Of a DNA stretch of 64,000 bases, positions 15,227 through 39,186 are shown one piece after another. The notes below the pieces were generated by a model. The model was not told where the DNA came from. It made no database searches and saw nothing but the letters and a program-made list of their open reading frames with translations. Positions within the stretch are counted from its first letter, which is position 1; each line of letters opens with the position of its first letter. Source of the stretch: Chelativorans sp. J32. GTDB taxonomy: Bacteria; Pseudomonadota; Alphaproteobacteria; Rhizobiales; Rhizobiaceae. A program made the position numbers and the translations under genes. Location: assembly GCF_000518985.1 (NCBI RefSeq), contig NZ_JAEQ01000004.1, positions 1-64,000 of the forward strand, in the 5' to 3' direction.

Positions 15227-15274
15227 TAACAGCAGTACAGAGCTGACGCAACGCGCTTGTCGGGGAGAGCATCA

Positions 15275-16501: not shown

Positions 16502-16519
16502 GACTCGAGGGAACCGTCC

Positions 16520-18859: not shown

Positions 18860-18868
18860 GAGGAACCC

Positions 18869-20542: not shown

Positions 20543-20550
20543 GGCAGGGA

Positions 20551-21114
20551 ATGAAGATCGCCCGCCGCGCCGACCACAAGCGCATGGCATGGAAGAACGG
20601 GAAGGGCCTTACCGAGGAGGTGGCGGCCTTCCCGCCCGGCAGCGATGTCGACAGCTTCGAGTGGCGGCTTTCGATTGCCCATGTCGCGGCCGATGGCCCC
20701 TTCTCGGTCTTTCCGGGCATTGATCGAACCATCGCCCTCTTGGATGGATCGGGCCTGGTGCTTAATTTGCCGGGCGGAAGCGTGACGGAGCTTTTGTCCG
20801 GCGGCACGCCCTTTTCCTTCCCGGGCGAATGGGAAATCGCCAGCCGCAATTCCGCTGGTCCCACCATCGACCTCAACATCATGACGCGGCGCGGGTGCTG
20901 CACTCATGCGATGCGGCGCCTGACGCTGGCTCCAGGCGAAAGCTTTACGACGCCAGCCTTCGGCTGGGTGGTGTTCAACACGCCCGCTACAATCGAAGCG
21001 CATGGGTCAGCGCTGTCGATTGACCGCTTTGACGCGCTCTCGCTGACCGTTAGCGAAAGCTTTGTGAATCACGCCGAAAATCCCATTGAAATCCTGGACG
21101 TGCAGATCAGCTGA
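20551..21114 (+). CDS. hutD: HutD family protein
   Basis: A 187-residue cupin-like HutD protein. The N-terminal pattern RMAWKNGKGLTEEVAAFPPGS and the central WRLSIAHVAADGPFSVFPGIDR are family hallmarks. HutD has been proposed to limit hut flux in Pseudomonas, but its biochemical function is not settled. The start at 20551 follows AGGCAGGGA, 8 bp after hutU. Confidence 0.9.
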   Translation: MKIARRADHKRMAWKNGKGLTEEVAAFPPGSDVDSFEWRLSIAHVAADGPFSVFPGIDRTIALLDGSGLVLNLPGGSVTELLSGGTPFSFPGEWEIASRNSAGPTIDLNIMTRRGCCTHAMRRLTLAPGESFTTPAFGWVVFNTPATIEAHGSALSIDRFDALSLTVSESFVNHAENPIEILDVQIS

Positions 21115-21166: not shown

Positions 21167-22543
21167 TCAGGGCCGGATCAGATCCGCAATTTCTCCCAGA
21201 GAGACCGGCCGAAGCGGCGGGCGGATCGTCAGATAACCAGCCTCGTCCATGGCCAGGCCGCTTGTCGCAGCGGTGAGGCTGGTGAGCGTCATGCCGCAGA
21301 TCCGACCTTGGCACGGTCCCATGCCGCTGCGCAGGAATGCCTTGACCTGGTTCGGGCCGGCGCTGCCTGTATCGATTGCTCTGCGGATCTCACCACAGGT
21401 CACCTCTTCGCAGCGGCAGGCGATGACTTCATCCGGCGGAGAAAATAGAGCAGCGCGCGGCCGATAAAGCCTATCGAGCAGGGGACGGGGAGCAAGATGG
21501 GCACGCCGCTCGCGGTGAGTGATGTTGCGCAGGTGTTCGTCCACCGGCCGACCAAGCTTCTCAAGGATGGACATGGCCGCGAGGCGCCCTTCAAGCAATG
21601 CAACGGTGGCACCGCCGATGCCTCCGGCGTCGCCCGCGACATACACGCCATTCATAGAGCTTTGCATATGGACGTCACGCAGCGGATGGAAGGCCGCGCC
21701 AACCTCCGACCAACGCATTTGGCACCCCAAGGAACGCGTCATATGCGATTCCGGGATAACTCCTTCATGAAGACCGACATGACCTGCGGGCAGGCAATGC
21801 GAGGCTCCGCGGCTTTGAAAGCGGACTTCCAATGCTTCTCCCGCGCTCTCAATGCGAAGGTCCTGCGGGCGTTCATGGAATTTGATGCCGGCGCGCCGGA
21901 GCGTCCATAAAAGCTTCAGTCCCTTCATCAGATAAGATGGACCGCGCCCACTCAGCGCGCGAGGCAGATGCGGCAAGGCGCGAAACAGCGCACCCGTATC
22001 GCCGGTGTCGATAAGCGTCAGGTCGCGCTTGCCGGCTGCAAGACACTGGGCGGCATAGAGATAGAAGAGCGGGCCTGTGCCGATCAGAACAAGGGCGCCA
22101 TCCGGCAAAAGCCCGTCGCGCTTAAGCAGGATCTGAAGCCCGCCGATTGTCGTCACACCAGGAAGCGTCCAGCCGGGTACCGGAACGGGGCGCTCCATCG
22201 CCCCTGTGGCAATCAGGAGATGGTGGGCCCGTTCCTGACGGATGCCAGTTTTGTCCTTCAACCAGACGGTGCCGTCAGCTTCAACGCGCCAGGCCTGGGT
22301 TTCGAATGCAAGATGTGCCGGACTTGCACGCAGGCGGGCAGCTTCGGCCTTTCCCATGAGATAGTCCGGCCCGAGGATTCGTGAGCGGCTTTCCGGAATG
22401 GTCTCGATCCCGCGCCAGATCTGGCCACCAGGGCCGGGAGCTTCGTCAACGAGAAGAACCCGTGCGCCGTTTTCTGCCAAGAGGCTCGCGCCTCCGACAC
22501 CTGCCGGCCCGGCGCCGATGACGATGGCGTCCCACGCAGTCAT
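21167..22543 (-). CDS. FAD/NAD(P)-binding subunit of a three-component amine/imino-acid dehydrogenase, with BFD-like domain
   Basis: A 458-residue flavoprotein related to HcnB, octopine/nopaline oxidase subunit A and one subunit of D-hydroxyproline dehydrogenase. It has two dinucleotide folds (VIGAGPAGVGGASLLAENGA at residue ~6 and VLIGTGPLFYLYAAQ mid-protein). A C-terminal BFD-like segment carries CRCEEVTCGEI and GMGPCQGRICG, cysteines suited to a [2Fe-2S] cluster. It overlaps the 2Fe-2S gene by 4 bp and is the last gene of the seven-gene operon. It probably passes electrons from the DAO subunit to an acceptor; the substrate is set by that partner. Confidence 0.87.
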   Translation of the reverse strand: MTAWDAIVIGAGPAGVGGASLLAENGARVLLVDEAPGPGGQIWRGIETIPESRSRILGPDYLMGKAEAARLRASPAHLAFETQAWRVEADGTVWLKDKTGIRQERAHHLLIATGAMERPVPVPGWTLPGVTTIGGLQILLKRDGLLPDGALVLIGTGPLFYLYAAQCLAAGKRDLTLIDTGDTGALFRALPHLPRALSGRGPSYLMKGLKLLWTLRRAGIKFHERPQDLRIESAGEALEVRFQSRGASHCLPAGHVGLHEGVIPESHMTRSLGCQMRWSEVGAAFHPLRDVHMQSSMNGVYVAGDAGGIGGATVALLEGRLAAMSILEKLGRPVDEHLRNITHRERRAHLAPRPLLDRLYRPRAALFSPPDEVIACRCEEVTCGEIRRAIDTGSAGPNQVKAFLRSGMGPCQGRICGMTLTSLTAATSGLAMDEAGYLTIRPPLRPVSLGEIADLIRP

Positions 22544-22869
22544 TCCGGCTCTCCTGAGGCATCGCGGCGCGCACCGATTTGACGTTCGACCACCATTCCT
22601 GCACGCGGGGTCGTCATGCATGCCCGCTGATTGTCATGTCCGTCGACGCGCAGCAGGCATTCGTAGCAGACTCCCATCAGACACCAGGGTCCTCGCTGAC
22701 TTCCCGAAACCGGCGTTTCGCGAAAATACGTGATCCCTGCCGCCATCAGCGCCCCGGCAAGGGACTCGCCTGACCGGAAGGACACGGGACGGCCCTCGAA
22801 CTGGAATTCGGCAGATTCGGGTCCGGGCACCGGCCCATCATCAAGTCGTCTGAACGGCAAAACGTACAC
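22540..22869 (-). CDS. [2Fe-2S] ferredoxin-like subunit of the amine/imino-acid dehydrogenase
   Basis: A small ferredoxin-like protein of about 109 residues, like HcnA and the LhpF/OoxA-associated subunits. The cluster ligands are C-x4-C-x2-C in CLMGVCYEC followed by the distal Cys in RACMT. The start is uncertain: GTG at 22867-22869 is used here, with TTG at 22858-22860 as a short alternative. Either overlaps the end of the DAO gene. Its stop overlaps the next gene as ATGA. Confidence 0.8.
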
Positions 22870-23956
22870 TCCGCATGGAACGGGGCGCGGGGCCAAGATG
22901 GCCTTCCGCCAATGCCGGGCCCAATTCAAGCCCATGAAGGCTGGCGAGGGTGACCCCGCTATGACAGGTGACGACAAACGCGCCAGGCATCTCAGGCGCC
23001 TCCTCATAGATCGGCAATCCGTCCGGGCTCATGATTCGCAGCGCACCCCAGGCGCGCAGCAGACGCGCCGAACGGAGCGCCGGAAAGAGCCGTGTCCCGG
23101 TCCGGCAAAGCCGGGCGATGGTTTCCATGTCGGTGCCAGTCGAAAAACCTGCATCCTCGTGCGAGCTGCCCAGCAGCACCGTCCCCTCTGAAGTCTGGCG
23201 GATCGTATTGGTGGGATGGCGAAGAAATGGAGCCACGCGATCTGTAGCCACGATCTGCCCGCGTTCGGGGCGCAGTCCCAGCTCAAGCCCGATCTGGCTC
23301 GCTAAGCGATTGGCTCCCAGTCCGGCCGCGATGGCGAGGCGGCGGCCAGTGAATTCACAACCTGTGGCATCGCTCACGATGAAACCCAGGTCTCGGTCGT
23401 GGCGTATCCGTTCAGCGGTGAAATTCACCACGATCTCGCCGCCATGGGTTCGGAACGCATTTTGCAGTGCCCGAAGAGTTAGCAGCGGGCTGACTTCTCC
23501 ATCGAGATTGGAAAGCGAGGCGCCGCGAACTTCGGGGCCGATACCGGGAGCGATTTCGCGCAGGGACTCACGGTCGAGAAGCTCGATGCAGATATCGGCG
23601 CCTTCCGCCTTCGATCGGGATATGAGCGCGCGGCGCGCCTCCATTTCATCCTCGGAGAGGCAGAAATGCAGCCCTCCGCCACCGCGCCAGCCTATGTCGA
23701 TACCTGTCTCCTCCTGCAGGATCGCGGAGAATTCCGGCCAAAGCTGCCCAGCGCGAATCGACCAATGCATGTAATCGGGATGGCCCAGCCCCTTTCCCTG
23801 CAGCCAGACGAGGCCGAAATTTCCGCGGGAGGCGCGGTGGGCAATATCGCCTTCATCCAGCAAGGTAACCCGCGCGCCCTCACGCGCAGCTCCCCAGGCG
23901 AGTGCCGAGCCAATCAGACCGCCGCCGATGACAATGAGGTCGTTACCGGCCGTCAT
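22841..23956 (-). CDS. FAD-dependent oxidoreductase of the DAO family (catalytic subunit)
   Basis: A 371-residue glycine/D-amino-acid-oxidase-type flavoprotein. The FAD-binding [28 protein letters not shown] is at the N-terminus, and a DAO C-terminal region contains the flavin-contact stretch [14 protein letters not shown]. The 2Fe-2S and FAD/BFD genes follow directly, so it is probably the substrate-oxidising subunit of a heterotrimer like D-hydroxyproline or opine dehydrogenases. The start at 23954-23956 has GGA 8 bp upstream; an ATG at 23962 is an alternative. Oxidation of an amino or imino acid to an imine is a family-based inference. Confidence 0.86.
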
Positions 23957-24674
23957 GAGCATAGTCCGGCGGCGCGAGCGAAAGATGCATCCAACGCACC
24001 AGCGTAACGATGTCGTAGACAGGTACGCCGAAGCGGCGCGAGACGAACGCGGAATAGGGCGGTAGGTTCGCGCATTCGAAGATCAGCGCTCCCACCTCGG
24101 GATGCCGGGCGAGAAGGCCGGCCACCACTTCGACCACTTCGGCCTCCTGCGCGGCGGCATCCACCTCGGCTGCCTGTTCACGCATATTGCGCCGCAAGGG
24201 GCCGTCAAAAGCCAAGGCCGCCATAGGCAAACCGGGTGCGGCGCCAATGCCGCGGAAATGGCGCTCCGTCAGCGCGTCCGCATCGGAGACCACGAGCCCC
24301 GGCTTCTTTCCCGCCGGGAGGATGCGTTCCACCATGGGAATCTGGAGGAGGGCCGACGAGAGGAAGGGTACGGGCGAGTGGCGCGTAAGCTCGTCTTGCA
24401 CGGCAGCCAGAAAGCCACAACTCGTCGTGATGGCTGTGCAACCGAGGGCAACAAGATCATCAATCGCCGCGCGGAAGGCCTCTAGCGAATGGCGCGGGTC
24501 GCCTTCGATCACATCGGCCGGGCGGACGCCGCGCACCACCCGGAACTGCACCGGGAACGGCCAGGTGCCCGCATGGGCGATATCGCCCGGAAGCCGCTGA
24601 AAGCCGGTGTCGAGCACGATTATGCCAATCATGGTGCCATGAACGACGCGGCGGGGTAGGGCGGGCAGGGTCAT
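23943..24674 (-). CDS. Aspartate/glutamate racemase-superfamily protein
   Basis: A 243-residue protein with the two-cysteine layout of cofactor-independent racemases: Cys in TTSCGFL (about residue 85) and Cys in FECANLPPY (about residue 203). The superfamily also contains hydantoin racemases, maleate isomerases and arylmalonate decarboxylases, so racemisation is the default call rather than proven. The ATG at 24672-24674 has GGAGAA upstream and overlaps the ubiX stop. Next to a D-amino-acid-type oxidase, conversion of an imported L-compound to its D-form is a natural role (inference). Confidence 0.78.
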
Positions 24675-25264
24675 TGTGATTCTCCGGCAAGGCTATCCTT
24701 CAGTCCGGCCCAGCGCCGAACAGCGCCGGTATCTATATCGAAGAGATCGAGTGCGCGGGCCGTCGAATGAGTGACGACTTCGTCGAGGTTCTGCGGCTTT
24801 GCATAAAATGCGGGAACCGGCGGCATGATGATCGCCCCCATTCGGGTGAGCGCAGCCATCGTCTCGATATGCCCGAGATGCAGCGGCGTTTCGCGCAGCA
24901 TCAGGACCAGGCGCCGACGCTCCTTAAGCACTACATCGGCTGCTCGGCTCATCAGAGTCGAGGTCACTCCGGTGGCGATCTCGGACATGGTCTTCACCGA
25001 ACAGGGTGCGATCAGCATGCCCATCGTGCGGAAAGAGCCACTGGCGATCGTGGCTCCGATATCGGTGTGCGGGTAGACTACGTCGGCATGCCCTTCGATA
25101 TCGGCCTTCTGCAGGCCGAGCTCTTGTTTCAATGTAAGGAGCGCCGACCGGCTGACGACCAGATGTGTCTCCACACCGGCCGCCCTGGCAAGGTCGAGCG
25201 CGCGAAGCCCATAGGCCGCTCCCGACGCGCCGGATATGCCGATCACGAGCCTCCGCCGGTCCAT
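24671..25264 (-). CDS. UbiX-type flavin prenyltransferase
   Basis: A 197-residue UbiX/Pad1-family protein that prenylates FMN to make prFMN, the cofactor of UbiD-type decarboxylases. The flavin loop GISGASGAAYGLRAL is at the N-terminus. PCSVKTMSEIATGV and the C-terminal MRETPLHLGHIETM and PPVPAFY are classical UbiX blocks. The ATG at 25262-25264 lies 1 bp after the UbiD gene. Because it is embedded in this operon, it most likely serves the adjacent UbiD protein rather than ubiquinone synthesis. Confidence 0.92.
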   Translation of the reverse strand: MDRRRLVIGISGASGAAYGLRALDLARAAGVETHLVVSRSALLTLKQELGLQKADIEGHADVVYPHTDIGATIASGSFRTMGMLIAPCSVKTMSEIATGVTSTLMSRAADVVLKERRRLVLMLRETPLHLGHIETMAALTRMGAIIMPPVPAFYAKPQNLDEVVTHSTARALDLFDIDTGAVRRWAGLKDSLAGESQ

Positions 25265-25265
25265 G

Positions 25266-26591
25266 TCAGGCACCAGGGAACCAGTCGGAGAGGCGGATGT
25301 CATCGACCATGCGCAGGCGCTTGCGCTCGAATTCCTTCTCACGTCCCCAGGGCTTGGTGGCATCGACCAGGAGACGGCCCCAATGATCCTTGGCCTCGTC
25401 GCGATAGAAGGAGGGCGTTTCCGGAATGATCATCATGTCCTTGTCGGGGCGGCAGCGGGTCAGGATAGCCCATTGGACATCGTCCATGTCGTAGATGTCC
25501 ACATCGGTATCGACGACGGTGATCTGCTTTGCCCAGATCGGCTCCGCGCCGATCGTCGCGAGCATCACCTGGCGGGCATGACCTTCGAACTGCGGTTCGA
25601 TCTGTATGATGGCATGGTTCACGAAGGGCTGGCAGGTGACGTTGACGATGCCCGGAAGCGCAGCGCTCAGACGCTGGTAGATATTGGCCGAGACGGAAAG
25701 TTCCAGCGTCAGCACTTCTTCGGGCGAGCCGCAGAGGATCGAGTGGAACATCGCGTCCTTACGTACGGTGACGCCCAGCACCTCGAATACGGCGTTGGGA
25801 CCTACGGGGACATAGTAACCCATGAACTCGCCGAAGGGACCTTCGGGCCGGCGTTCGTTGGGTAGGAAACGCCCCTCGATCACCACCTCGGTCTCGGCGG
25901 GAACCTCAAGGTCGATATGGTTGCACTTGCGCATCGGGATCGGGCGCCCGCGCAGACGGGCTGCAACCTCCAACTCGTCCACGTCGTAAGGCAATGGCGC
26001 AGCCGCGGTCAGAAATGCATGAGCGGGCGGTCCGACCAGCATCGCCGCCTCAAGCGGCTTGCCCATCTTCTCGGCCTTCTCGTGGTAGATGGTCAGATGA
26101 TGGCGCGGAGCGAGGCGGCAACGCAACTCGCCGTCATTGATATACATGGAACGGTGGTAAGAGAGGTTTCCAACACCGGTCTCCGGGTCCTTGGCGATGA
26201 ACATTGCCGAGGTGAAATAGGGGGCGCCATCACGGTCGGAATAGGTGATCAGCGGCAGGTCCGAAAGCCTGACCTCCTCATACCCGGGCGTCGCGGTGGC
26301 AGGAACGAGCGGCTCCTTCATCTCGGCGGAGCCGAGCGAGGACAGCTTGCTCCATTGCCGGCAGAAGTCACCCGCATCGATCCCGATCACCTCGCCCAGC
26401 CGCTCTCGGGTGCTGTAGACATTGGTGACTACCGGAAAGCGGGTGCCCTTCACATTGGTGAACATCACCGGCTTCGCCCATTTCTTTTGGGCCAAATGGG
26501 TGACCGCAGCCAACTCGTGCGCGGGATCGATCTCGCGTTCGACGACCAGCAGGTCGCCACGTTCCTGCAGTTTACGGACGAATTCTCTCAT
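25266..26591 (-). CDS. UbiD-family prFMN-dependent (de)carboxylase
   Basis: A 441-residue UbiD-family enzyme, shorter than the roughly 490-residue housekeeping UbiD. Family regions are present: GVGNLSYHRSMYINDGE (prFMN/Mn site), LAPRHHLTIYHEKAE, LPYDVDELEVAA and the catalytic acidic stretch EVVIEGRFLP-x-ERRPEGPFGEFMGYY. UbiD enzymes remove CO2 from aromatic, heteroaromatic or alpha,beta-unsaturated acids. It starts by a 4-bp overlap with the GntR regulator gene. Its substrate is unknown, but it should be a conjugated carboxylic acid formed in or entering this pathway. Confidence 0.9.
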   Translation of the reverse strand: MREFVRKLQERGDLLVVEREIDPAHELAAVTHLAQKKWAKPVMFTNVKGTRFPVVTNVYSTRERLGEVIGIDAGDFCRQWSKLSSLGSAEMKEPLVPATATPGYEEVRLSDLPLITYSDRDGAPYFTSAMFIAKDPETGVGNLSYHRSMYINDGELRCRLAPRHHLTIYHEKAEKMGKPLEAAMLVGPPAHAFLTAAAPLPYDVDELEVAARLRGRPIPMRKCNHIDLEVPAETEVVIEGRFLPNERRPEGPFGEFMGYYVPVGPNAVFEVLGVTVRKDAMFHSILCGSPEEVLTLELSVSANIYQRLSAALPGIVNVTCQPFVNHAIIQIEPQFEGHARQVMLATIGAEPIWAKQITVVDTDVDIYDMDDVQWAILTRCRPDKDMMIIPETPSFYRDEAKDHWGRLLVDATKPWGREKEFERKRLRMVDDIRLSDWFPGA

Positions 26592-27358
26592 GCGAGGCTC
26601 CTCGTAGTGGACCTGGCGGCCCTTGCTGGAGTGGTGGCGATGCGGTTCGTGCGCGCCTCATGGGTCGAGCGCAGGCGATAGCGATCGCCGGGATAAAAGA
26701 AGCGGCTGCGGGTCACTGGAATTCCTTCGCGCCACGTGGAGCGGTCGAGCAGCAGGCACGGCTGGTTGATGTCGATCTGCAGATATTGACGCGTTTCCTC
26801 ATCGGCACGGATGGCGCGGATCGTGTTGTCGACCATCGTCACCGAGGTCTCGCGCAGGAGCCAGGCATGCGGCGTCGTTCTTGAGAAATCCTGCTCGATA
26901 TAAGCCGGGGCCTCAGCGCCGTTGACATAGCGATCTTCAAGCTGGATCGGCGTACCGTCTTCTAGATGCAGGAGGCGGGAGTGGAAGACTGGCTCCCCGG
27001 GCGGGAGCTGAAGCATGTTGCGCCCGGGGCTGTCCTTGTCCAGGACCTCATGCTCAATGACGAGACAGCTATGCACGCCGCCGGAGAGGGCCACTTCCTC
27101 GGAAATATCCGAAAGGTTGAATACCGCGCATTGCGTGCGGGGGCCGATCACAAACGTGCCCCGACCCTGGACGCGAATGAGTACTCCGTCGGCCTGAAGC
27201 TCCCGTAGCGCACGGCGCACAGTCAGGCGTGAGGCGCCGAACTCCCCGGCCAGCTCATCCTCGGAGGGCAGCTGGAAATTGGCCGGCCATTCTTCGGTTT
27301 CGATCCGCCGGTCGATTGCGCTCTTAATCTGCTCATAAAGGGGTAGGTCGGAGGGCAC
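26588..27358 (-). CDS. GntR-family (HutC/UTRA) regulator 1 of the catabolic island
   Basis: A winged-helix GntR domain (LPSEDELAGEFGASRLTVRRALRELQ region) followed by a UTRA domain ending FFYPGDRYRLRS. By eye roughly two thirds of residues match the regulator at 35453-36226. The GTG at 27356-27358 is chosen because homology to that paralogue begins there; the frame stays open further upstream into AT-rich DNA without coding support. It is the first gene of the seven-gene operon. A palindrome at 27367-27391 sits just upstream, suggesting autoregulation. Confidence 0.86.
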   Translation of the reverse strand: MPSDLPLYEQIKSAIDRRIETEEWPANFQLPSEDELAGEFGASRLTVRRALRELQADGVLIRVQGRGTFVIGPRTQCAVFNLSDISEEVALSGGVHSCLVIEHEVLDKDSPGRNMLQLPPGEPVFHSRLLHLEDGTPIQLEDRYVNGAEAPAYIEQDFSRTTPHAWLLRETSVTMVDNTIRAIRADEETRQYLQIDINQPCLLLDRSTWREGIPVTRSRFFYPGDRYRLRSTHEARTNRIATTPARAARSTTRSLA

Positions 27359-27366
27359 GTGTGCGT

Positions 27367-27391
27367 CCAAAAATGATATCACTATGGTTGG
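27367..27391. promoter_or_regulatory. Palindromic candidate operator for the GntR/UTRA pair (site 1)
   Basis: CCAA...TTGG arms flank an AT-rich core containing AATGATATCACTAT. The 14-bp core is identical, on the opposite strand, to the core of the palindrome at 36331-36353, and both palindromes share the same centre. It lies 8 bp upstream of the regulator 1 start codon, in the divergent intergenic region. Confidence 0.6.
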
Positions 27392-27567
27392 CAAACATAC
27401 ACATATGATCCTTGTTCTAAAATCAAGCCATTTTTGCTGCCTTCCAGAAAACCCGCATTTCGGCCTGAAAGTCCTCCCTGGTGCGGAAAAGTTGCTCATT
27501 TTTTAAGCGTCCACGGGATCATTCCCGGCGGAGTGCCCATTTTTTAGGCGGATATGAATATGAATTT

Positions 27568-27591
27568 ATACCAACAGATTTGGTATTGACA
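27568..27591 (+). promoter_or_regulatory. Perfect inverted repeat abutting a -35 box of the divergent operon
   Basis: ATACCAA-N5-TTGGTAT is a perfect 7-bp inverted repeat at 27568-27586. Its last base is the first base of TTGACA (27586-27591), a consensus -35 for rightward transcription toward the aldehyde dehydrogenase gene. A protein bound here would compete with polymerase or contact it. It differs from the GATATC-centred palindromes. Confidence 0.5.
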
Positions 27592-27707
27592 GGGGAGTTA
27601 TAAATATCATTTTGTATCTAAACAGACGTTATTAATGCGCCATTGGCGCGGCCACGCATTGCCTCGGTGCTATGACCCCGATCCGGCATTGCGAGAGGGG
27701 AGAGGTC

Positions 27708-29198: not shown

Positions 29199-29210
29199 CG
29201 CGCGGGTGAA

Positions 29211-30917
29211 ATGATGAGAAAAGGCGCCGAGATCCTCGCCGACGAACTTGCCCTGAATGGGGTCGATATCGTCTATCACGTCCCGGGCGAGAGCTTTCTC
29301 GTCGCGCTCGATGCGCTGGCCACTCGCCACCCGGGAATTCGCTCCATCAGCTGCCGCCACGAGAATGGAGCGGCACAGATGGCCGAGGCCCATGGCAAAC
29401 TCACCGGCAGGCCGGGGGTGGCCTTTGTAACCCGCAGCCCCGGGGCGACCAATGCCGTGAACGGGGTGCATACGGCGTTTCAGGATTCCTCACCGATGAT
29501 CCTGATCGTAGGGCAGGTCAAGCGCTCGATATTAGAGCGCGAAGCGTTCATGTCCTACGACTTTCGCACCATGTTCGCCCCCATGACGAAATGGGTGGGG
29601 CAGATCGACGATCCGGCGCGCATTCCGGAATTCGTCCAGCGCGCATGGACCACCGCACTTTCAGGACGCAAGGGACCCGTGGTCCTGGTTGTTCCGGAGG
29701 ATGTGCTTGAGGAAATGAGTGATGTCGCGCCCTCGGTTCGTCCCGCCGCGCCTTCCCATGCCGGCACGCCGCGGGAGGAGGATCTGCAGCAGATCTTCGC
29801 GATGCTGGCCGATGCGAAGAAGCCGCTCGTGGTCGTCGGTGGTTCGGATTGGAGCGAGGCCGCCCGCGAGGATATCCAGCGCTTTGCGACCGTTCATGGC
29901 CTGCCAGTCGTGACTACCTTCCGGCGACGCGACATCATCGACCACCGGCTGGATTGCTATGTGGGCGAGATCGGCATTGGCTCGAATCCGGCGCTTCTGG
30001 CTCACATCCGCGAGACCGATTTCATCCTGATGCTAAACGACGCGCTAAGCGATGTGAACACGATCGGCGCGGGCTACATGGAGGGTTTCACCCTCTTCTC
30101 GATCCCGCATCCGAAGCAGAAGGTCGTTCATGTCATGGCCGATCACGGTGACCTGAACCGGGTCTTCCAGGTCGATCTGGCGCTGGTGGCGGACAACGAT
30201 GCCTGTGCCCGGGCGTTGGCGGCATATCCGGCTTCTCCGCGCCCTGAACATCGGGAATGGTGCGGGAAATTGCGAGCGACATTGATGGAGGAGCGCGTAC
30301 CTCAGCCGTGCCCCGGCGATATAGACCTGCCGGGCGTGATGGGCTGGCTGCGTAAGCGCTTACCCGAGGATGCCATCGTCACCAACGGCGTAGGCGCCTA
30401 CGCTACCTGGAGCCAGCGTTATTTCCCGCATTATCGCTTGCACACCCAACTCGGCCCGATCAGCGGCTCGATGGGATATTCGCTGCCTGCAGCGATCTCG
30501 GCCAAGATCGCATATCCCGAGCGGGTGGTGGTGGATTTTGTCGGCGACGGTTGCTTCCAGATGAGCAGCGAAGAACTGGCGACCGCGGTCCAATATGGCG
30601 CAAACATCATCATCGTCCTCTACAACAACGGGCTCTACGGCACGATCCGCATCCATGAGGAGAACCGGCTGGAGGGACGTGCCAACGGCACCGATCTCGT
30701 CAACCCGGATTTCCTGATGCTCGCCAAGGCCTATGGCGCGCATGGCGAGCGCGTTACCAAAACCGAGGAATTCGCACCTGCCTTCGAGCGCTGTCTTGCA
30801 GCTGGAAAGCCCGCTCTCATCGAAATGGTGATCGACCCTGAAGCGATCCACTGCCGCTATTCCCTTAGCGATCTGCGCGCACGACGTGAGGCCAGAGCGC
30901 GAGAGAGAGGAGCTTGA
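29211..30917 (+). CDS. Thiamine-diphosphate-dependent enzyme of the catabolic island
   Basis: A 568-residue ThDP enzyme of the acetolactate synthase/2-oxoacid decarboxylase superfamily. The activating Glu is in RHENGAAQMAEAHGKL (about residue 50). The ThDP/Mg motif starts GDGCFQMSSEE and ends IVLYNNGLYG. The 'RSPGATN' loop resembles acetolactate-synthase-like proteins, but no regulatory subunit is adjacent. With an aldehyde dehydrogenase upstream, decarboxylation or C-C cleavage of a 2-oxo acid is the likely role. Tandem ATGs at 29211 and 29214 are both possible starts. Confidence 0.83.
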   Translation: MMRKGAEILADELALNGVDIVYHVPGESFLVALDALATRHPGIRSISCRHENGAAQMAEAHGKLTGRPGVAFVTRSPGATNAVNGVHTAFQDSSPMILIVGQVKRSILEREAFMSYDFRTMFAPMTKWVGQIDDPARIPEFVQRAWTTALSGRKGPVVLVVPEDVLEEMSDVAPSVRPAAPSHAGTPREEDLQQIFAMLADAKKPLVVVGGSDWSEAAREDIQRFATVHGLPVVTTFRRRDIIDHRLDCYVGEIGIGSNPALLAHIRETDFILMLNDALSDVNTIGAGYMEGFTLFSIPHPKQKVVHVMADHGDLNRVFQVDLALVADNDACARALAAYPASPRPEHREWCGKLRATLMEERVPQPCPGDIDLPGVMGWLRKRLPEDAIVTNGVGAYATWSQRYFPHYRLHTQLGPISGSMGYSLPAAISAKIAYPERVVVDFVGDGCFQMSSEELATAVQYGANIIIVLYNNGLYGTIRIHEENRLEGRANGTDLVNPDFLMLAKAYGAHGERVTKTEEFAPAFERCLAAGKPALIEMVIDPEAIHCRYSLSDLRARREARARERGA

Positions 30918-31020
30918 ACGCGGCAGGACATTGGAATTTGCCGAGCCCGACGCAGAAGCGGGCCGGTGCAAGATCGACGGAAGAGATCCGCTCGATCAAC
31001 CACCCCCCAGAGGAGTTAAG

Positions 31021-32043
31021 ATGAAAACCAGACATATCCTTACAGGCCTCGCTCTTTCGGTCGCCTGGGTCGGAACCGCGGCTGCCGATGATTGCATGCT
31101 CCGCGTCACCACCTGGGGCGGCAGCTACCAGGCGACGTATGAGTCGGTCGCGGCTGCATTCGAGGAAAAATACGACTGCAAGATCGAATGGGTTGTGGGC
31201 GCAAGCCCGGATCACCTGATCAAAGCTCGCCTCGGCCAGGTTGATGTGGTGACGAACACGCTGCTGAATTCGATCGCGGGCGAGAAGGAAGGCCTCTGGC
31301 TGCCTCTCGATCCAGCCAAGATTCCCAACATGGCCAATCTTTACGAGAACGCCGTGTATTCCGAACATACGGTCTTTGCGAATGTCGGTGACTATGTTCT
31401 CGCCTACAACACGGACAAGATCTCCGAACCGCCGGCCAGCTGGGACGATCTTTGGAAACCCGACTATAAAAACAGCGTCGTGATTTATGGCGTCGATCAC
31501 ATCCCGACGCTGAGCCTATTGGTGATGAAGGCCGAGCAGAACGGCGGTAGCATCGACAACATCGATCCGGGCATTGACCGGATGGCCGAACTGATCAAGA
31601 GCGGCAATCTGATCGGCATGCTCGATGTGGAAAGCCAGATGGTCTCGCTCTTCGAGACAGGCGATGCTTCGATCGGCATGCTGGCCACCGGCCGAATGAA
31701 GGATCTGCTCTCGAAGGGCGCGAAGAACGTCAAGTTCGTGCGGCCTGAGGAAGGCACTTTCCCGCTTATCACGAGCGTGAATATCCATAAGGATACTCCC
31801 AATCCCGACATGGCGGCGAATTTCGTGAACTATATCCTCAGCCCCGAGGTACAGGTTGCCTTCGCCACCCGCAATTTATATGCACCGACGGTGAAGAATG
31901 CCGAAGTGCCGGAGGATTTCGAGTTCCGCGAGCTTCTCGTGCTAAATGAAGCCTTCGGCCGTCTCTACTTGCCCGATCAGGAAAAGATCACCGCCAACAA
32001 GGCCGACTGGCAGCAACGGCTGAACCAGAAGGCCAGGCGCTAA
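31021..32043 (+). CDS. Periplasmic solute-binding protein, polyamine/opine-type ABC importer
   Basis: A 340-residue extracellular solute-binding protein of the PotD/spermidine-putrescine-type family. A Sec signal peptide (MKTRHILTGLALSVAWVGTAAA) is followed by LRVTTWGGSYQ, the usual first strand. The start at 31021 follows AGAGGAG. It is the ligand receptor for the ATPase and permeases downstream. This family binds polyamines, opines and other cationic or amino-acid-like compounds, which fits the oxidase genes on the other side of the island; the actual ligand is unknown. Confidence 0.88.
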   Translation: MKTRHILTGLALSVAWVGTAAADDCMLRVTTWGGSYQATYESVAAAFEEKYDCKIEWVVGASPDHLIKARLGQVDVVTNTLLNSIAGEKEGLWLPLDPAKIPNMANLYENAVYSEHTVFANVGDYVLAYNTDKISEPPASWDDLWKPDYKNSVVIYGVDHIPTLSLLVMKAEQNGGSIDNIDPGIDRMAELIKSGNLIGMLDVESQMVSLFETGDASIGMLATGRMKDLLSKGAKNVKFVRPEEGTFPLITSVNIHKDTPNPDMAANFVNYILSPEVQVAFATRNLYAPTVKNAEVPEDFEFRELLVLNEAFGRLYLPDQEKITANKADWQQRLNQKARR

Positions 32044-32055
32044 CAGAAAAATGCC

Positions 32056-32082
32056 GGGGCGGCCCCGATGTCGGGCCGCCCC
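32056..32082 (+). other. Intercistronic GC-rich stem-loop after the binding-protein gene
   Basis: GGGGCGGCCC-N7-GGGCCGCCCC forms a perfect 10-bp stem without a T-run, 12 bp after the binding-protein stop codon. Hairpins in this place in binding-protein operons commonly stabilise the upstream message or thin out transcription, so the receptor is made in excess over the membrane parts. That role is inferred here. Confidence 0.65.
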
Positions 32083-32133
32083 GCCTCGCAATATCCTAAG
32101 AGAACTTATGCCAATGGCCCGCGTAGCGCTGAG

Positions 32134-33237
32134 ATGAAGCACAGCATGTCTAATGATGCCATTCAAGTCCTGGGAGTCATCAAGCGCTACGGCGCGACGA
32201 CGGCCGTCGACAATGTCTCCTTCAATGTCGCCCAAGGCGAATTCGTCTCGCTCCTCGGACCCAGTGGCTGCGGCAAAACCACGACGCTCAGGATGATCGC
32301 GGGATTCATCGAGCCTTCTGGCGGGGTACTCCGCGTCCATGATCGCGATGTCACTCACCTGCCGCCCAACAAGCGCGACCTGGGCTTCGTCTTCCAGAAT
32401 TATGCGCTCTGGCCGCATATGACAGTGGCCGAGAATGTGGGATTCGGTCTGAAGCTGCGGAAGAAGAGCCGCGCCTTCATTCGCGACAAGATCGCGGAAT
32501 CTCTCTCCGTGACGGGCCTGTCGGGCTATGAGGACCGGTTGCCCCGCCAGCTGTCGGGCGGCCAGCAGCAGCGGGTGGCTCTGGCGCGCGCGCTTGCGCT
32601 CGAGCCGCAGGTCCTGCTGATGGACGAGCCGCTCTCCAATCTCGATCGCGCACTACGCGTTACCATGCGGCGTGAGCTCAAGGAGCTGCAGGCGCGGATG
32701 AAGATGACCACGCTGTACGTGACGCATGATCAAGAAGAAGCGCTGTCGCTGTCGAACCGCGTCGTGATCATGAACAGGGGAAAGGTCGAACAGGTCGCCG
32801 CGCCGTACGAGCTCTATGAAAATCCCGCAACGAGCTTCGTCGCCGATTTCGTCGGCGTAACGAATTTCCTCGAGGGTACGGCGCTCGGCATGGATGGAAA
32901 ATCGGTGGGCGTGAAACTGGCCTCGGGGCAGGTTCTCCGCGCGATCGCAAAGGAGGCAGTCACCTCGGGTACCCAGGTGCGCGCGCTGATCCGGCCGGAG
33001 CGGGTGACGCTTATGACCGCGTCTATCGAAGGCGAGAACGTGCTGACTGGCCGCGTCATCCTCTCCGAATATTTCGGGGCTGTGCTCCGCTATTCGGTGC
33101 AGCTCGACAGCGGCGAGGTTCTGCGCTCGGAGGTCCACAATTTCGACGGCTTCATCGAGGATGGCGCCAGGGTGTGGATTTGCGTCCTGCCGGAGCATTT
33201 GCGCGTGATTCCCCAAGAAACGGCAGCGCTGACATGA
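32134..33237 (+). CDS. ABC importer ATPase (PotA-like)
   Basis: A 367-residue ATPase of the spermidine/putrescine type. It has Walker A GPSGCGKTT, signature LSGGQQQRVALARAL, Walker B VLLMDEPLSNLDRAL, the H-loop in YVTHDQEEAL and a C-terminal TOBE-like domain (residues ~280-360). The start is unsure: ATG at 32134 is given, ATG at 32146 (MSNDAIQ) is equally possible; neither has a strong ribosome site. The stop overlaps the next gene (ATGA), so it is coupled to the permeases. Confidence 0.92.
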   Translation: MKHSMSNDAIQVLGVIKRYGATTAVDNVSFNVAQGEFVSLLGPSGCGKTTTLRMIAGFIEPSGGVLRVHDRDVTHLPPNKRDLGFVFQNYALWPHMTVAENVGFGLKLRKKSRAFIRDKIAESLSVTGLSGYEDRLPRQLSGGQQQRVALARALALEPQVLLMDEPLSNLDRALRVTMRRELKELQARMKMTTLYVTHDQEEALSLSNRVVIMNRGKVEQVAAPYELYENPATSFVADFVGVTNFLEGTALGMDGKSVGVKLASGQVLRAIAKEAVTSGTQVRALIRPERVTLMTASIEGENVLTGRVILSEYFGAVLRYSVQLDSGEVLRSEVHNFDGFIEDGARVWICVLPEHLRVIPQETAALT

Positions 33238-34094
33238 TCCGGCGCATTCTTCCCCCTCTGGCGCCGGCTTTGATCGCGCTGCTGATCTTCGTCGCCTTCC
33301 CGATGCTTTGGGTTCTGCGCACCAGTTTCAACGAATTGGCCGGCGGAGCCTATGTCGTCGATGCGCTGACGCTCGATAACTACACCCGGTTTCTTGGCGA
33401 CCCCTGGTATCTCGTCAATACGCTGTGGTTCTCGATCCGAATTGCCATTGTCACCACGGTTATTTCGGTGGTCTGCGCCTATCCGGTCGCGCTCTATATC
33501 GCAAAGACCACGGGCTTTCAGCGCAACATCCTGATAGCGCTGATCATGGCACCGCTCCTGATCGGCCTCGTGACACTGGTCTATGGCTGGATCGTGATTT
33601 TCAGGGGAGGCGGGCTGCTAAACTCGCTGATGATCGCACTCAGGATCTATGACGACCCGGTCCGCTATATGTGGGACATCAAGGGCGTGGTGATCCTGCT
33701 CGTTTATATCGGCACGCCATATGTGGTGCTTTCTCTCCTCGATTCGATCGAGCGGATCAGCCCCTTCCTCGTCGAGGCGGCGCGCAATGTTGGTGCCAGT
33801 CGTTGGACCGCCTTCTGGAAGATCGTGTTCCCGATGACCATGCCCGGGCTTTATGCAGGGCTTGTCATCGTCTTCTCGCTGAATTTCTCGGCATTTGCGG
33901 TGCCGCTGATGGTCGGCGACAGCAATACGCAGATGATCGGGCTGATCGTCTATCGAGAGGCGTTGCTGAACAACGATTTGCCCTTCGCGTCTGCGTTGTC
34001 GGTAATCATGGTGGCGGTAAATGCGCTGATACTTGCCGGGATGGCCGCGCTGTTCGGGCGCCTGATACTCAATCGACTGGAGGCAAAGCGGTGA
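33234..34094 (+). CDS. ABC importer permease 1 (PotB-like)
   Basis: A 286-residue inner-membrane permease with about six hydrophobic helices. The cytoplasmic EAA loop reads VEAARNVGASRWTAFWKIVFPMTMPGL, which contacts the ATPase. The ATG at 33234 overlaps the ATPase stop by 4 bp. It pairs with the next permease. Confidence 0.92.
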   Translation: MIRRILPPLAPALIALLIFVAFPMLWVLRTSFNELAGGAYVVDALTLDNYTRFLGDPWYLVNTLWFSIRIAIVTTVISVVCAYPVALYIAKTTGFQRNILIALIMAPLLIGLVTLVYGWIVIFRGGGLLNSLMIALRIYDDPVRYMWDIKGVVILLVYIGTPYVVLSLLDSIERISPFLVEAARNVGASRWTAFWKIVFPMTMPGLYAGLVIVFSLNFSAFAVPLMVGDSNTQMIGLIVYREALLNNDLPFASALSVIMVAVNALILAGMAALFGRLILNRLEAKR

Positions 34095-34885
34095 TCCGGC
34101 TGGACCTTGGCACAGCCGCGCTACGGCTCATTACGCTGCTCATGATGGCTTTTCTGGTTTTCCCGATCGCGGTGACGCTGGTCGTGGCGGTCAATCCACG
34201 TGAGTTCATCCTGCCGCCGAACGGTTTCACGCTCGACTGGTTCAAAGCGGCCTGGAGTTCGCAAACCTTCCTGCGCGGCATGGGGGTAAGCCTCGTGCTC
34301 GGGATCTCGGCAGCCTTCCTCGCCAATGCGCTTGCGCTGCCGGCCGCCATGGCGCTGGTGCGCAACAATTTCGCGGGCAAGGCGGCGATCAACATCGTCC
34401 TCATGTCGCCATTGCTGATCCCGACGACGATTTTCAGTCTTGCGCTCTACATCTATTTCGTGCGAATCGGCTATGGGTCAGGCCTTGTGCCGCTGCTGGT
34501 GGGCCATACCATTCACATCATGCCCTATGCGCTGCGGATCCTGACGGCGAGCTTGCATAATCTCGATCCGTCCTATGAAGAGGCGGCCGCTATTGTTGGG
34601 GCAGGGCGCATCCGGACGTTGTTCTCGGTGACGCTGCCGGTCATCCGCACAGGACTGGTGTCGAGTTTCGCGCTTTGCTTCATCCTGTCCTGGAATGACT
34701 TCCCGATTTCGGTATTCCTGGCCCCGCCGGGCTGGACACCGCTGCCGGTTGAGCTCTTCTCTTATATCAAGTTCCAATATGATGCCGTCGCAGCGGCGCT
34801 GGCGAGCTCACTGATCCTGCTATCGGCGCTAGCCATTGTAATCATCGATCGATTGGCGGGATTGCGTCGCGTCGTGCGATCCTAA
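34091..34885 (+). CDS. ABC importer permease 2 (PotC-like)
   Basis: The second permease, 264 residues, again with six helices and an EAA loop (EEAAAIVGAGRIRTLFSVTLPVIRTGL). The start is a GTG at 34091-34093 overlapping the previous stop as GTGA. It closes the four-component importer; RidA follows 92 bp downstream. Confidence 0.9.
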   Translation: MIRLDLGTAALRLITLLMMAFLVFPIAVTLVVAVNPREFILPPNGFTLDWFKAAWSSQTFLRGMGVSLVLGISAAFLANALALPAAMALVRNNFAGKAAINIVLMSPLLIPTTIFSLALYIYFVRIGYGSGLVPLLVGHTIHIMPYALRILTASLHNLDPSYEEAAAIVGAGRIRTLFSVTLPVIRTGLVSSFALCFILSWNDFPISVFLAPPGWTPLPVELFSYIKFQYDAVAAALASSLILLSALAIVIIDRLAGLRRVVRS

Positions 34886-34977
34886 GCGACCATAGCCGGG
34901 CATCTAGAGAATGTCCGGCACTATCCCCGACCTTGTAGCCGCGGGCGCTCGCCATGGGTGCAGCAAAGGAGACATTC

Positions 34978-35358
34978 GTGAAAAACCGTATATTCGCCGG
35001 CGTTCCTTCCGAGGAGGCCGCAGGTTATGCGAAGGCTGTTATCGATGGCACAACCATCCATGTTTCGGGCACGACCGGACGCGATCCTGCTTCCGGAGCT
35101 TTCCCCGAGGACGCGGGCCAGCAAGCGAGGAATTGCCTTGCCTCGATCGATGCGGCTTTGCGACAGGCCGGAGCGAGCCTCTCGAACGCGGTCGTCTGCA
35201 GGGTCTATGTTGTCGACCAGGCCACTGCGGCCGAGGTGACGCCCGTGCTGGGCGAGGTCTTCCGCGATATTCGGCCGACGAACACCCTGTTGATTTGCCA
35301 AATCCCCGCTCCAGGCGCGAAGGTGGAAATCGAGATTACAGCCTCGATTGCTGCGTAA
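34978..35358 (+). CDS. RidA/YjgF family enamine/imine deaminase
   Basis: A 126-residue RidA-family protein, which hydrolyses reactive enamine/imine intermediates to ketones and ammonia. GTTGRDPASGAFPEDAGQQARNCLASID and the closing NTLLICQIPAPGAKVEIEITA match the family, although the usual catalytic Arg region reads RPTNTLL, where RPAR-x-T is common. GTG at 34978 is preferred because AAGGAG lies 6 bp upstream; an ATG at 34954 is in frame. In this island it suits clean-up of the imine made by the DAO-type oxidase. Confidence 0.88.
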   Translation: MKNRIFAGVPSEEAAGYAKAVIDGTTIHVSGTTGRDPASGAFPEDAGQQARNCLASIDAALRQAGASLSNAVVCRVYVVDQATAAEVTPVLGEVFRDIRPTNTLLICQIPAPGAKVEIEITASIAA

Positions 35359-35376
35359 TTTGATTGAACCTATAGC

Positions 35377-35408
35377 GCGGCAGCCGGGGGCTGGGGGCTG
35401 GCTGCCGC
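35377..35408. terminator. Stem-loop between convergent ridA and regulator 2
   Basis: GCGGCAGCC at 35377-35385 pairs with GGCTGCCGC at 35400-35408, a perfect 9-bp stem with a 14-nt loop, between two convergent genes. There is no clear U-tract, so termination is plausible but not certain. Confidence 0.45.
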
Positions 35409-35452
35409 CTTTCGAAGACGATCGTCCGGCGGTTTACACAAGCTGACCGTCT

Positions 35453-36226
35453 CTATCGAATTCTCCTCGAGGACCCGGACGGTGTAAGTGCGGCTCTGTG
35501 CGCGCCCGGTGCTGCGGTTGCCTCATGGGCGCTGCGCAGCCGATAACGGTCACCTGGATAAAGAAAGCGGCTGCGCGTGACCGGAACGTCGCCGCACCAC
35601 GTGCGCCGGTCGACCAGAAGGCAGGGTTGATTGGCATCGATCTGAAGGAGCGCGCATGCTTCCTCGTCCGGCCGGATAGCGCGGATCGTATTGTCTATGA
35701 AGGTGACTTCGGTTGTGCCCAGCAGGTAGGCATGCGGGGTTATGCGCGTGAAATCCTGCTTCAGGTAGTCTGGTGCCATGGCTGCGTTGACGAAGCGGTC
35801 TTCAAGCTGAATGGGGGTACCGTCCTCGGTGTGAAGCAGGCGTGAATGATAGACCGTCGCTCCTGGCCCGACCGGCAGCAGATTGGCCAAGGGACTGTCC
35901 GACGGGAGCGCGCCAAGCGACACGACGCGGCTCAGGTGAACCCCGCCGCTTTCTTCGATTTCCTCGGACACGTCCTGGAGGTTGAAGATTGCGCATTGCA
36001 TGCGCGGTCCGATGACAAAAGTGCCGCGGCCTTGGATGCGGACCAGCATTCCCTCGGTCTGCAGTTCGCGCAGCGCGCGGCGGACCGTTAGACGTGAAGC
36101 GCCGAACTCGGCCGCCAAAATTTCCTCTCCCGGAACCTGAAAGTCGGCAGGCCATTCCTGCTGTTGGATGCGCTTCTCAATCGCCATCTTGATCTGCTCA
36201 TAGAGCGGCTGACCGGATTGGCTCAC
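35453..36226 (-). CDS. GntR-family (HutC/UTRA) regulator 2 of the catabolic island
   Basis: A 257-residue GntR/UTRA regulator, closely similar to the protein at 26588-27358 along its whole length: identical LTVRRALRELQ recognition helix, then GRGTFVIGPR and DGTPIQLEDR. The start is the GTG at 36224-36226 with GAAGGAG 5 bp upstream; an ATG at 36253 is in frame but behind the ribosome site. It converges on the importer operon. The shared recognition helix and shared palindrome core suggest that both regulators bind the same sites. Confidence 0.88.
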   Translation of the reverse strand: MSQSGQPLYEQIKMAIEKRIQQQEWPADFQVPGEEILAAEFGASRLTVRRALRELQTEGMLVRIQGRGTFVIGPRMQCAIFNLQDVSEEIEESGGVHLSRVVSLGALPSDSPLANLLPVGPGATVYHSRLLHTEDGTPIQLEDRFVNAAMAPDYLKQDFTRITPHAYLLGTTEVTFIDNTIRAIRPDEEACALLQIDANQPCLLVDRRTWCGDVPVTRSRFLYPGDRYRLRSAHEATAAPGAHRAALTPSGSSRRIR

Positions 36227-36330
36227 ATTCTCTCCTTCGGGATTCACACCCATGGGCCGGACTTCCGGCACCCTAGCTTTATTTAGACCAGCTTGTTGCA
36301 TAGTCCCTAGCGCAATAACACACTTCTTAA

Positions 36331-36353
36331 GACTAATAGTGATATCATTAGTC
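36331..36353. promoter_or_regulatory. Palindromic candidate operator for the GntR/UTRA pair (site 2)
   Basis: GACTAAT-N9-ATTAGTC is a perfect 7-bp inverted repeat whose centre contains GATATC. The stretch ATAGTGATATCATT is identical to the complement of the core at 27367-27391. It lies 105 bp upstream of the regulator 2 start codon, in an otherwise quiet AT-rich patch. Confidence 0.65.
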
Positions 36354-39109: not shown

Positions 39110-39186
39110 TGGTCGGAGTGGCAGGATTTGAACCTGCGACCCCCTCGTCCCGAACGAGGTGCGCTACCAGACTGCGCTACACTCCG
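39110..39186 (-). tRNA. tRNA-Pro (anticodon CGG)
   Basis: Read on the minus strand it folds completely. Acceptor CGGAGTG pairs with CACTCCG, D-stem GCGC/GCGC, anticodon stem CCTCG/CGAGG with loop TTCGGGA (anticodon CGG), T-stem GCAGG/CCTGC with loop TTCAAAT, discriminator A and an encoded CCA. All 77 nt are accounted for. Confidence 0.97.

Follow-up and report, generated by a model that had tools for sequence, protein, structure and literature searches.

Trimeric dehydrogenases of the DAO type act on secondary amines. In the D-hydroxyproline and opine oxidase systems, a DAO subunit works together with a [2Fe-2S] subunit and an FAD-binding alpha subunit, and the hydroxyproline (Lhp/Hyp) pathway uses pyrroline-4-hydroxy-2-carboxylate deaminase and α-ketoglutarate semialdehyde (KGSA) dehydrogenase. 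In the L-pipecolate oxidase route, a cyclic secondary amine is oxidized by an FAD enzyme, the ring opens, and the aldehyde is trapped by an aldehyde dehydrogenase (ALDH), all without decarboxylation. Among the UbiD decarboxylases, which use prenylated flavin mononucleotide (prFMN) supplied by UbiX, HmfF and HudA are enzymes of five-membered heteroaromatic acids and AnInD is an enzyme of indole-3-carboxylate, a nitrogen heteroaryl acid; the solved enzymes nearest to the UbiD studied here have simple furan, pyrrole, or indole acids as substrates, and no amino-acid pathway around AnInD is known to us. Here, we analyzed the first 64,000 nucleotides of contig NZ_JAEQ01000004.1 of the alphaproteobacterium Chelativorans sp. 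J32 (the window), in which a 15-gene cluster (21167–36253) lies beside the operon for histidine utilization (hut). The cluster shares its oxidase subunits with the hydroxyproline and opine systems but lacks a hydroxyproline deaminase and contains UbiD, UbiX, and a thiamine diphosphate (ThDP) enzyme. Compared with the pipecolate route, it adds ThDP and UbiD steps, and, unlike HmfF and HudA, its UbiD is embedded in amino-acid catabolism with an oxidase, a ThDP enzyme, and an ALDH. It is a real, conserved catabolic unit for which no description was found in the open literature searched, and our best explanation, held tentatively and at somewhat less than even confidence, is that this self-regulated unit frees histidine from a ring-substituted form and feeds it into the Hut pathway.

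According to gene calls and family scans, the cluster is a single divergent unit made up of a minus-strand block of seven genes (21167–27358), each overlapping or abutting the next, a plus-strand operon divergent from it (27672–35358), and, after the operon, the minus-strand gene of regulator 2 (35453–36253). This bears out the layout of seven minus-strand genes and a divergent operon in an earlier model-made reading of the same DNA (the original prediction). The adjacent DAO, [2Fe-2S], and FAD alpha genes identify a trimeric DAO-type dehydrogenase. All seven solved chains matched by the DAO subunit at 1e-10 are glycine oxidases, and the [2Fe-2S] subunit has a counterpart in Paracoccus denitrificans annotated as a (2Fe-2S)-binding protein of 104 aa. 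The racemase, which matched no PDB sequence at E 0.01, holds two cysteines, in TSCGF and FECANLP as read from its sequence, that are presumably of the catalytic type. The ALDH fell below the cut-off for every NCBIfam model among the best 25 of 42 matched, scoring 390.9 bits against the 770 required for KGSA dehydrogenase, and family scans found no hydroxyproline-pathway deaminase among the cluster proteins. The protein originally predicted as RidA is likely Rid-like; this call is based on a TIGR00004 match below the cut-off (49.9 vs. 106.25 bits) and on a Sinorhizobium meliloti relative annotated as RidA family.

To place the cluster among other genomes, we scanned genome contigs for UbiD, which gave 171 candidate stretches, of which 152 encode a relative; the best 80 of the 152 were taken and 79 loci kept. 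The counts below use 77 of 88 loci (each given an L number), after removal of L001–L004 (own genome), of L084, L086, and L087 (repeat species or records of L016, L022, and L085), and of L066, L068, L075, and L080, in which UbiD was not recovered by the gene caller. Residue 292 divides these loci into clade A (glutamate; 60–95% identical, the truncated L054 apart; 49 loci) and clade B (aspartate; 46–52%; 28 loci), the residue being acidic in every assigned locus. In clade A, UbiX was present in 40 of 49 loci, ALDH in 33 (32 of the 41 loci of at least 15 kb), and the regulator in 31. Two front ends occurred alongside this core. The type I front end, as in the window, comprises the racemase, trimeric DAO, Rid protein, ThDP enzyme, and a Pot-like importer, and the racemase–DAO pair was found in 14 of 49 loci. 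The type II front end, found in 21 loci, combines a PAAT-family amino-acid importer with a monomeric DAO, without the ThDP enzyme and, except in three mixed loci that carry both front ends, without the racemase or trimeric DAO. In L019 and L022, which are distinct loci, a choline/betaine-family importer takes the place of the PAAT importer, and an NMT1-type importer was present in seven clade A loci. Neither front end was found in 17 of the 49, some of them on short contigs. Thus, a core of regulator, UbiD, UbiX, and ALDH is combined with interchangeable front ends that converge on ALDH and UbiD.

The full set of UbiX, ALDH, regulator, ThDP enzyme, racemase, and DAO was present in 10 of 49 clade A loci, which speaks against a chance assembly, and the same gene order was seen in P. 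denitrificans (without the Rid gene) and in S. meliloti, in both from plasmid annotations. The original prediction had named a lack of co-conservation between UbiD/UbiX and the oxidase genes as a ground for its refutation; such co-conservation was observed, with racemase and DAO beside UbiD in the 14 loci mentioned above. Of 397 genomes of the order, six (own genome counted) encoded a UbiD at least 67% identical; among 385 genomes of the class, the own genome was the only one to do so. Three of the six were already in the locus set, and another contributed a further type I locus, L136, without a matched Rid gene or an exact operator (see below). The set therefore recurs sporadically, in scattered, mostly proteobacterial genomes. 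In Pseudohalocynthiibacter (L086), the cluster lies on a conjugative plasmid, flanked by transposase and type IV secretion genes, a location that fits sporadic spread. Two other neighbors of UbiD were recorded. A DUF2390 (TIGR02444) protein of unassigned function (e.g., L006:11961-12485) was found with UbiD in 24 of the 49 clade A loci and in none of the 28 from clade B; the own genome has one copy, on another contig. This protein may have an accessory role in prFMN maturation or in the pathway. In a Rokubacteria metagenome-assembled genome, a molybdenum hydroxylase of the CO-dehydrogenase/xanthine-dehydrogenase family (L045:3080-5317) stands one small gene before a 66% identical UbiD.

The two cluster regulators are 65% identical to each other and just 31% identical to the HutC of the hut operon in the same window. 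Both exceed the cut-off of the HutC model TIGR02018, for which the separate HutC of the hut operon scores higher (285.5 bits), and, among solved structures, regulator 1 is best matched by 2pkh, the effector domain of a HutC. A palindrome, AATGATATCAYT, occurs exactly at two places only in the 4.70-Mb own genome (27372 and 36337), both before a cluster regulator gene. With one mismatch allowed, one further place was found elsewhere, compared to two for a reversed control pattern. Since the count in the window alone, with two mismatches allowed, was unremarkable (4 matches vs. 1.19 expected), the operator argument rests on the whole-genome and cross-genome results. In many regulator–ALDH intergenic stretches of related loci, the palindrome AATGATATCATT or a near variant was present. 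Exact sites (ARTGATATCAYT) numbered 26 in 1.64 Mb of loci plus window, repeats included; 24 were intergenic, and 22 had a regulator start as well as an ALDH start no more than 400 bp away. After removal of repeats, 20 exact sites remained, spread over 17 of the 49 clade A loci and absent from all 28 clade B loci, against ~0.06 expected from composition, and the operator was common to type I and type II loci. A motif search did not find it in the hut operon of the window. Together, these results describe a closed, self-regulated regulon, the exact palindrome occurring nowhere else in the own genome, and very probably a single pathway under one regulator pair.

We considered whether two neighboring functions might instead have been brought together, namely an amino-acid oxidase pathway (racemase, DAO, Rid, ThDP enzyme, and ALDH) and the disposal, by UbiD and UbiX, of an aromatic acid formed as a by-product, such as pyrrole-2-carboxylate from a hydroxyproline-like substrate. 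The 17 clade A loci with neither oxidase front end would suit this arrangement, as would HudA, a pyrrole-2-carboxylate decarboxylase (PMC7976604). However, regulator, UbiD, UbiX, and ALDH stay joined under one operator while the oxidase is swapped, and a diverged cluster, described below, repeats UbiD, ALDH, ThDP enzyme, Rid, and an amine oxidase, although of another kind and with no UbiX called. The lack of a deaminase also led us to reject pyrrole-2-carboxylate from hydroxyproline as the substrate, and we regard two separate functions as improbable.

A likely link to histidine comes from gene neighborhoods, alongside the HutC-type regulators. With the window included, 15 of the 50 clade A loci had hut or hut-like genes near UbiD, compared with none of the 28 clade B loci (Fisher p = 0.0007, without correction for kinship). 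In nine of the 15 (L006, L015, L017, L020, L021, L037, L039, L043, and the window), a urocanase at least 78% identical was present, and the remaining six carried a single hut gene or a paralogue. The hut genes occur in at least three arrangements relative to the cluster. In the window, L043, L015, and L037, they meet the oxidase side tail to tail (with a regulator between in the last two), and in L039 they are close to that side. L017 has them on the importer side, and the type II loci L006 and L020 have them behind UbiX, in opposite directions. In the window, the hut operon ends 53 bp from the convergent oxidase alpha gene. L011 and L014 have a full HutF inside the type II operon, with another HutF within 17 kb of the HutU of the genome, and L050 and L054 have a HutI-like and a HutG-like gene, respectively. 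Urocanase paralogues lie three genes from UbiD in L040 (54% identical) and one gene from it in L048 (52%); both retain the stretches we take to be catalytic and show changes, such as M131Y, at what is presumably the pocket. An M20 hydrolase accompanies the paralogue near UbiD in L040:1871-4800 and L048:1618-4166, with a CoA-transferase and an acyl-CoA dehydrogenase also in L040; this gene set is perhaps a route for a modified urocanate. The cluster resembles the Hut pathway in the family of its regulators and in its proximity to urocanase genes, but differs from it in its enzymes, in an operator that was not found in the hut operon, and in the low identity of those regulators to HutC.

A second, clade B UbiD cluster lies on another contig of the own genome. 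It encodes a Rid protein 64% identical to that of the window, an ALDH, UbiD, a ThDP enzyme, and an amine oxidase, the L059 relative of which matches PF01593. A 112-aa reading frame in this cluster is similar to the racemase, one further product gave sub-cut-off matches to peptide-importer binding proteins, and no gene was called as UbiX. It also contains a kynureninase (287 bits, cut-off 246) and a tryptophan 2,3-dioxygenase (422 bits, cut-off 391), the latter being the second copy in the genome. Among 23 genomes with a clade B UbiD, a dioxygenase over cut-off was present in 14 and lay within 12 kb of UbiD in four (own counted); in the three further genomes, the distance was 9–12 kb and the order identical. 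In L121, where neighboring genes were scanned, the genes on either side of the dioxygenase encode an arylformamidase (322 bits vs. a cut-off of 223) and an aromatic amino-acid transaminase. Within the locus set, window counted, three of the 28 clade B loci had a dioxygenase or kynureninase match, one of them weak, and none of the 50 clade A loci had one (p = 0.04, uncorrected). A kynureninase-like match in L055 (29%) was dropped, as the family model gave no confirmation, and a TrpX-like binding protein in clade B scored 160 bits, far below the cut-off of 390.

The window UbiD has the N, Rift, and C domains (PF20695, PF01977, and PF20696), its UbiX partner is encoded next to it and exceeds the model cut-off, and the Arg/Glu motifs SYHR and EGPFGE are shared by most aligned homologues, with a few deviations such as SFSR, SFCR, or DGPFGE; we take this Arg and Glu to belong to the conserved active-site network. 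The nearest solved relative is HmfF (6h6v; 33.6% identity over the alignment), followed, after two HmfF entries, by AnInD (7p9q; 29.7%). This nearness to decarboxylases of five-membered heteroaromatic acids is in favor of the histidine reading. Since the solved neighbors presumably act on simple acids, one alternative is that a simple heteroaryl amine or amino acid is degraded and that UbiD releases a bare heterocycle of the imidazole, pyrrole, or indole type, which is exported or degraded elsewhere, the hut adjacency reflecting regulator descent only. An HpaB-like monooxygenase, as ring cleavage would need, is present in four clade B loci and in clade A L044, and the clade B ones also have HyuA/HyuB-like hydrolases (model matches below cut-off). 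Yet family scans found no monooxygenase or ring-cleaving gene in the window cluster, the exact operator stands nowhere else in the genome, and a bare heterocycle leaves the second HutF, the urocanase paralogues, and the second dioxygenase and kynureninase of the sister cluster unexplained. We consider it unlikely, while giving it more weight than separate functions. The four clade B loci are L061, L062, L069, and L078; L061 also encodes a primary-amine oxidase over cut-off.

As ALDH and UbiD are the common endpoint of the two front ends, with one operator for both, we infer one shared aldehyde and one inducer. The type I enzymes would yield this aldehyde from R-CH(NH-X)-COOH via a 2-oxo acid and ThDP-dependent decarboxylation, and the type II enzymes directly from R-CH2-NH-X by the monomeric DAO, without a ThDP enzyme. 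Because UbiD acts on carboxyls on rings or double bonds, R should be an aromatic ring and R-H the product, and because clade A adjoins hut and clade B kynurenine genes, these products would be histidine and tryptophan, respectively. Cyclic adducts of histidine and tryptophan have just these forms, R-CH2-NH with formaldehyde and R-CH(NH)-COOH with glyoxylate, X being the amino acid's own alpha carbon. The simplest substrates fitting both types would therefore be the histidine–formaldehyde adduct spinacine (type II) and the glyoxylate adduct, its 4-carboxylate (type I). Spinacine is reported to be a spontaneous product of histidine and formaldehyde and to form also in cells exposed to a formaldehyde source (PMC9814826).

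A single route would accommodate the observed gene content, shared regulon, co-conservation, hut linkage, and tryptophan-linked sister cluster. The ABC transporter would import a modified histidine, the Asp/Glu-type racemase would epimerize it, and the trimeric DAO would oxidize the C–N bond beside the ring. The imine would then open, aided by Rid, to an aryl-glyoxylate (a 2-oxo acid), which the ThDP enzyme would decarboxylate to the ring aldehyde and ALDH would oxidize to the ring carboxylate. UbiD, with prFMN from UbiX, would finally decarboxylate the latter to free histidine for degradation by HutHUIFG. That UbiD feeds histidine to Hut we judge to be close to an even call, if slightly short of it; that the substrates are carbonyl adducts is possible yet doubtful. 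A little more doubtful still is the full proposal of two parallel salvage pathways for Pictet–Spengler adducts, those of histidine by this cluster and those of tryptophan (tetrahydro-β-carboline carboxylates) by clade B, in which UbiD would remove the last adduct carbon as CO2 and the amino acid would pass to the hut or kynurenine genes. With the same substrates, the oxidase might instead aromatize the cyclic adduct and UbiD decarboxylate the fused acid (an imidazopyridine, or a β-carboline in clade B). This would be straightforward UbiD chemistry, but it leaves the ThDP enzyme and ALDH without a role and provides no product for the hut or kynurenine enzymes, and we hold it to be very unlikely. 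Two other UbiD substrates were rejected: imidazoleacetate from histidine or histamine, whose carboxyl is on an sp3 carbon off the ring, where prFMN chemistry is not known to apply, and urocanate, which leaves ALDH unexplained.

The original prediction was partly supported by these results. Its proposed order of reactions fits the co-conservation, and it rightly considered an aromatic amino-acid conjugate as a possible target; nothing observed points to the opine-like target it also named. It had missed the adjacent hut operon (ending at 21114), the HutC-type character of the regulators, the type II front end, and the tryptophan-tied paralogous cluster. It had supposed that the combination may be undescribed, and no published pathway with this gene set or of the proposed kind was found in the open full-text literature (titles and abstract beginnings among the matches listed, subscription journals being mostly outside this scope); likewise, titles and abstract beginnings on imidazoleacetaldehyde and histamine catabolism and on methylhistidine gave no matching gene set.

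Several observations weigh against a return of histidine to Hut. Each reaction, the ring carboxylate as the UbiD substrate, and the adduct are deduced from gene content and conservation. HmfF H296 and R304, which we take to be functional pocket residues, align with E292 and V300 in the window UbiD, so its pocket differs from that of HmfF. The ThDP enzyme matches acetolactate synthases best, and no benzoylformate decarboxylase was found among its best 25 of 56 models or among the three solved chains it matched at 1e-60; the binding protein resembles PotD. As for the neighborhoods, 35 of 50 clade A loci had no hut gene in the stretch examined, related loci entered the Fisher test as if they were independent, and the choice of the window was not blind. 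The exact operator is confined to the 17 of 49 clade A loci, its sites are not independent since the loci share descent, and, as noted, 17 loci have neither front end. The dioxygenase is near the clade B UbiD in just 4 of 23 genomes, three of which share the order, and clade B is not uniform, as some loci carry HpaB-like, HyuA/HyuB-like, and amine oxidase partners instead. Finally, electron-poor imidazole is a poor substrate for HudA, which did not decarboxylate imidazole-2-carboxylate; its weak activity on imidazole-4-carboxylate, of which 1.3% was converted to imidazole, nevertheless counts in favor of the histidine reading (PMC7976604).

The features of the cluster and of the complete hut operon are collected in Table 1. 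Beyond the cluster, a tRNA-Pro gene (39110–39186) is followed by genes for a betaine aldehyde dehydrogenase and a choline dehydrogenase in a region extending to 42965, and the gene after the choline dehydrogenase may be BetI.

Table 1. Cluster genes, operators, and hut genes in the window
Feature	Position	Strand	Basis
FAD/NAD alpha subunit of trimeric amine/amino-acid oxidase; Pyr_redox_2, BFD [2Fe-2S], and sarcosine-oxidase-alpha A3 domains	21167-22543	-	Pfam PF07992, PF04324, PF17806 (longer ORF 21167-22621 scanned); gene call
[2Fe-2S] small oxidase subunit, start uncertain	22540 to ~22869	-	PF13510, 2.3e-24 (longer ORF)
DAO catalytic subunit, glycine-oxidase-like	22841-23962	-	PF01266, 199 bits
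Asp/Glu-racemase family protein	23943-24674	-	PF01177; NF005679, 293.7 bits vs. cut-off 231
UbiX flavin prenyltransferase	24671-25264	-	TIGR00421, 222.9 bits vs. cut-off 108.9 (longer ORF 24671-25363)
UbiD prFMN decarboxylase, clade A	25266-26591	-	TIGR00148, 314.5 bits vs. cut-off 244.85; three UbiD domains
GntR/HutC-family regulator 1	26588-27358	-	TIGR02018, 260 bits vs. cut-off 220 (longer ORF 26588-27499)
Operator AATGATATCACTA before regulator 1	27372-27384	+	Exact-motif search
Aldehyde dehydrogenase (ALDH)	27672-29198	+	PF00171, 590 bits
ThDP enzyme, PRK08199 subfamily	29211-30917	+	NF006052, 791.9 bits vs. cut-off 539
ABC importer binding protein, PotD-like	31021-32043	+	PF13343/PF13416 (longer ORF)
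ABC importer ATPase	32134-33237	+	PF00005 and TOBE_2 (longer ORF)
ABC importer permease 1	33234-34094	+	PF00528 (longer ORF)
ABC importer permease 2	34091-34885	+	PF00528 (longer ORF)
Likely Rid-family imine/enamine deaminase	34954-35358	+	TIGR00004, 3.4e-13, 49.9 bits, below cut-off 106.25
GntR/HutC-family regulator 2	35453-36253	-	TIGR02018, 262.6 bits vs. cut-off 220 (longer ORF)
Operator AATGATATCACTA before regulator 2	36337-36349	-	Exact-motif search
hut operon, complete, HutC to HutD	13015-21114		
HutC	13015-13740	-	Model over cut-off, 285.5 bits
HutF	13817-15160	-	Model over cut-off
HutI	15275-16501	+	Model over cut-off
HutH	16520-18055	+	Model over cut-off
HutG	18056-18859	+	Model over cut-off
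HutU	18869-20542	+	Model over cut-off
HutD	20551-21114	+	Pfam

The importer had been called polyamine-type in the original prediction, and here the likeness proved to be one of resemblance only. Its ATPase scored 353.5 bits against the PotA model (cut-off 482) and narrowly missed the potA subfamily (335.2 vs. 355.6), and its binding protein reached 39.6 bits against PotD (cut-off 582) and 33.9 against PotF (cut-off 636). The alignments of the PotD-like protein were too distant for its pocket to be read residue by residue. For the type II binding protein, lysine/arginine/ornithine models came closest, with scores below cut-off. In published work on S. meliloti, SMa2207, SMa2209, and SMa2211 are described as an ABC ATPase, a binding protein, and a ThDP-requiring protein (PMC12542648), which is the gene order in locus L085, and we tied the S. 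meliloti tags to this locus by gene order and descriptions. According to a further report, SMa2203-9 are potABCD4 and SMa2195-97 are satABC, putative putrescine and arginine importers, respectively; both are reported among symbiosis-essential transport genes and induced in symbiosomes, and deletion of satABC lowered nitrogenase activity by 55% (PMC7268258). In L085, a neighboring PAAT ATPase is 88% identical to a type II ATPase and therefore fits satABC. Thus, satABC appears to be the type II importer of this locus and potABCD4 its type I importer.

The names potABCD4 and satABC, the PotD/PotA-like importer, and the nearest models of the type II binding protein would together suggest that the cluster serves uptake and catabolism of polyamines or of the arginine family. 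The importer nevertheless missed the PotA, PotD, and PotF cut-offs, for which reason a polyamine substrate was rejected, and no breakdown route of polyamines or arginine is known to us that would require a prFMN decarboxylase; we consider this quite improbable, slightly more so than two separate functions. If instead the unit frees histidine from a ring-substituted form for use by the Hut pathway, this would provide a biological fate for the histidine–formaldehyde adduct and would add the regeneration of free amino acids to the uses of prFMN decarboxylases. It would also change the view of two S. meliloti symbiosis importers, so far taken as arginine and putrescine importers.

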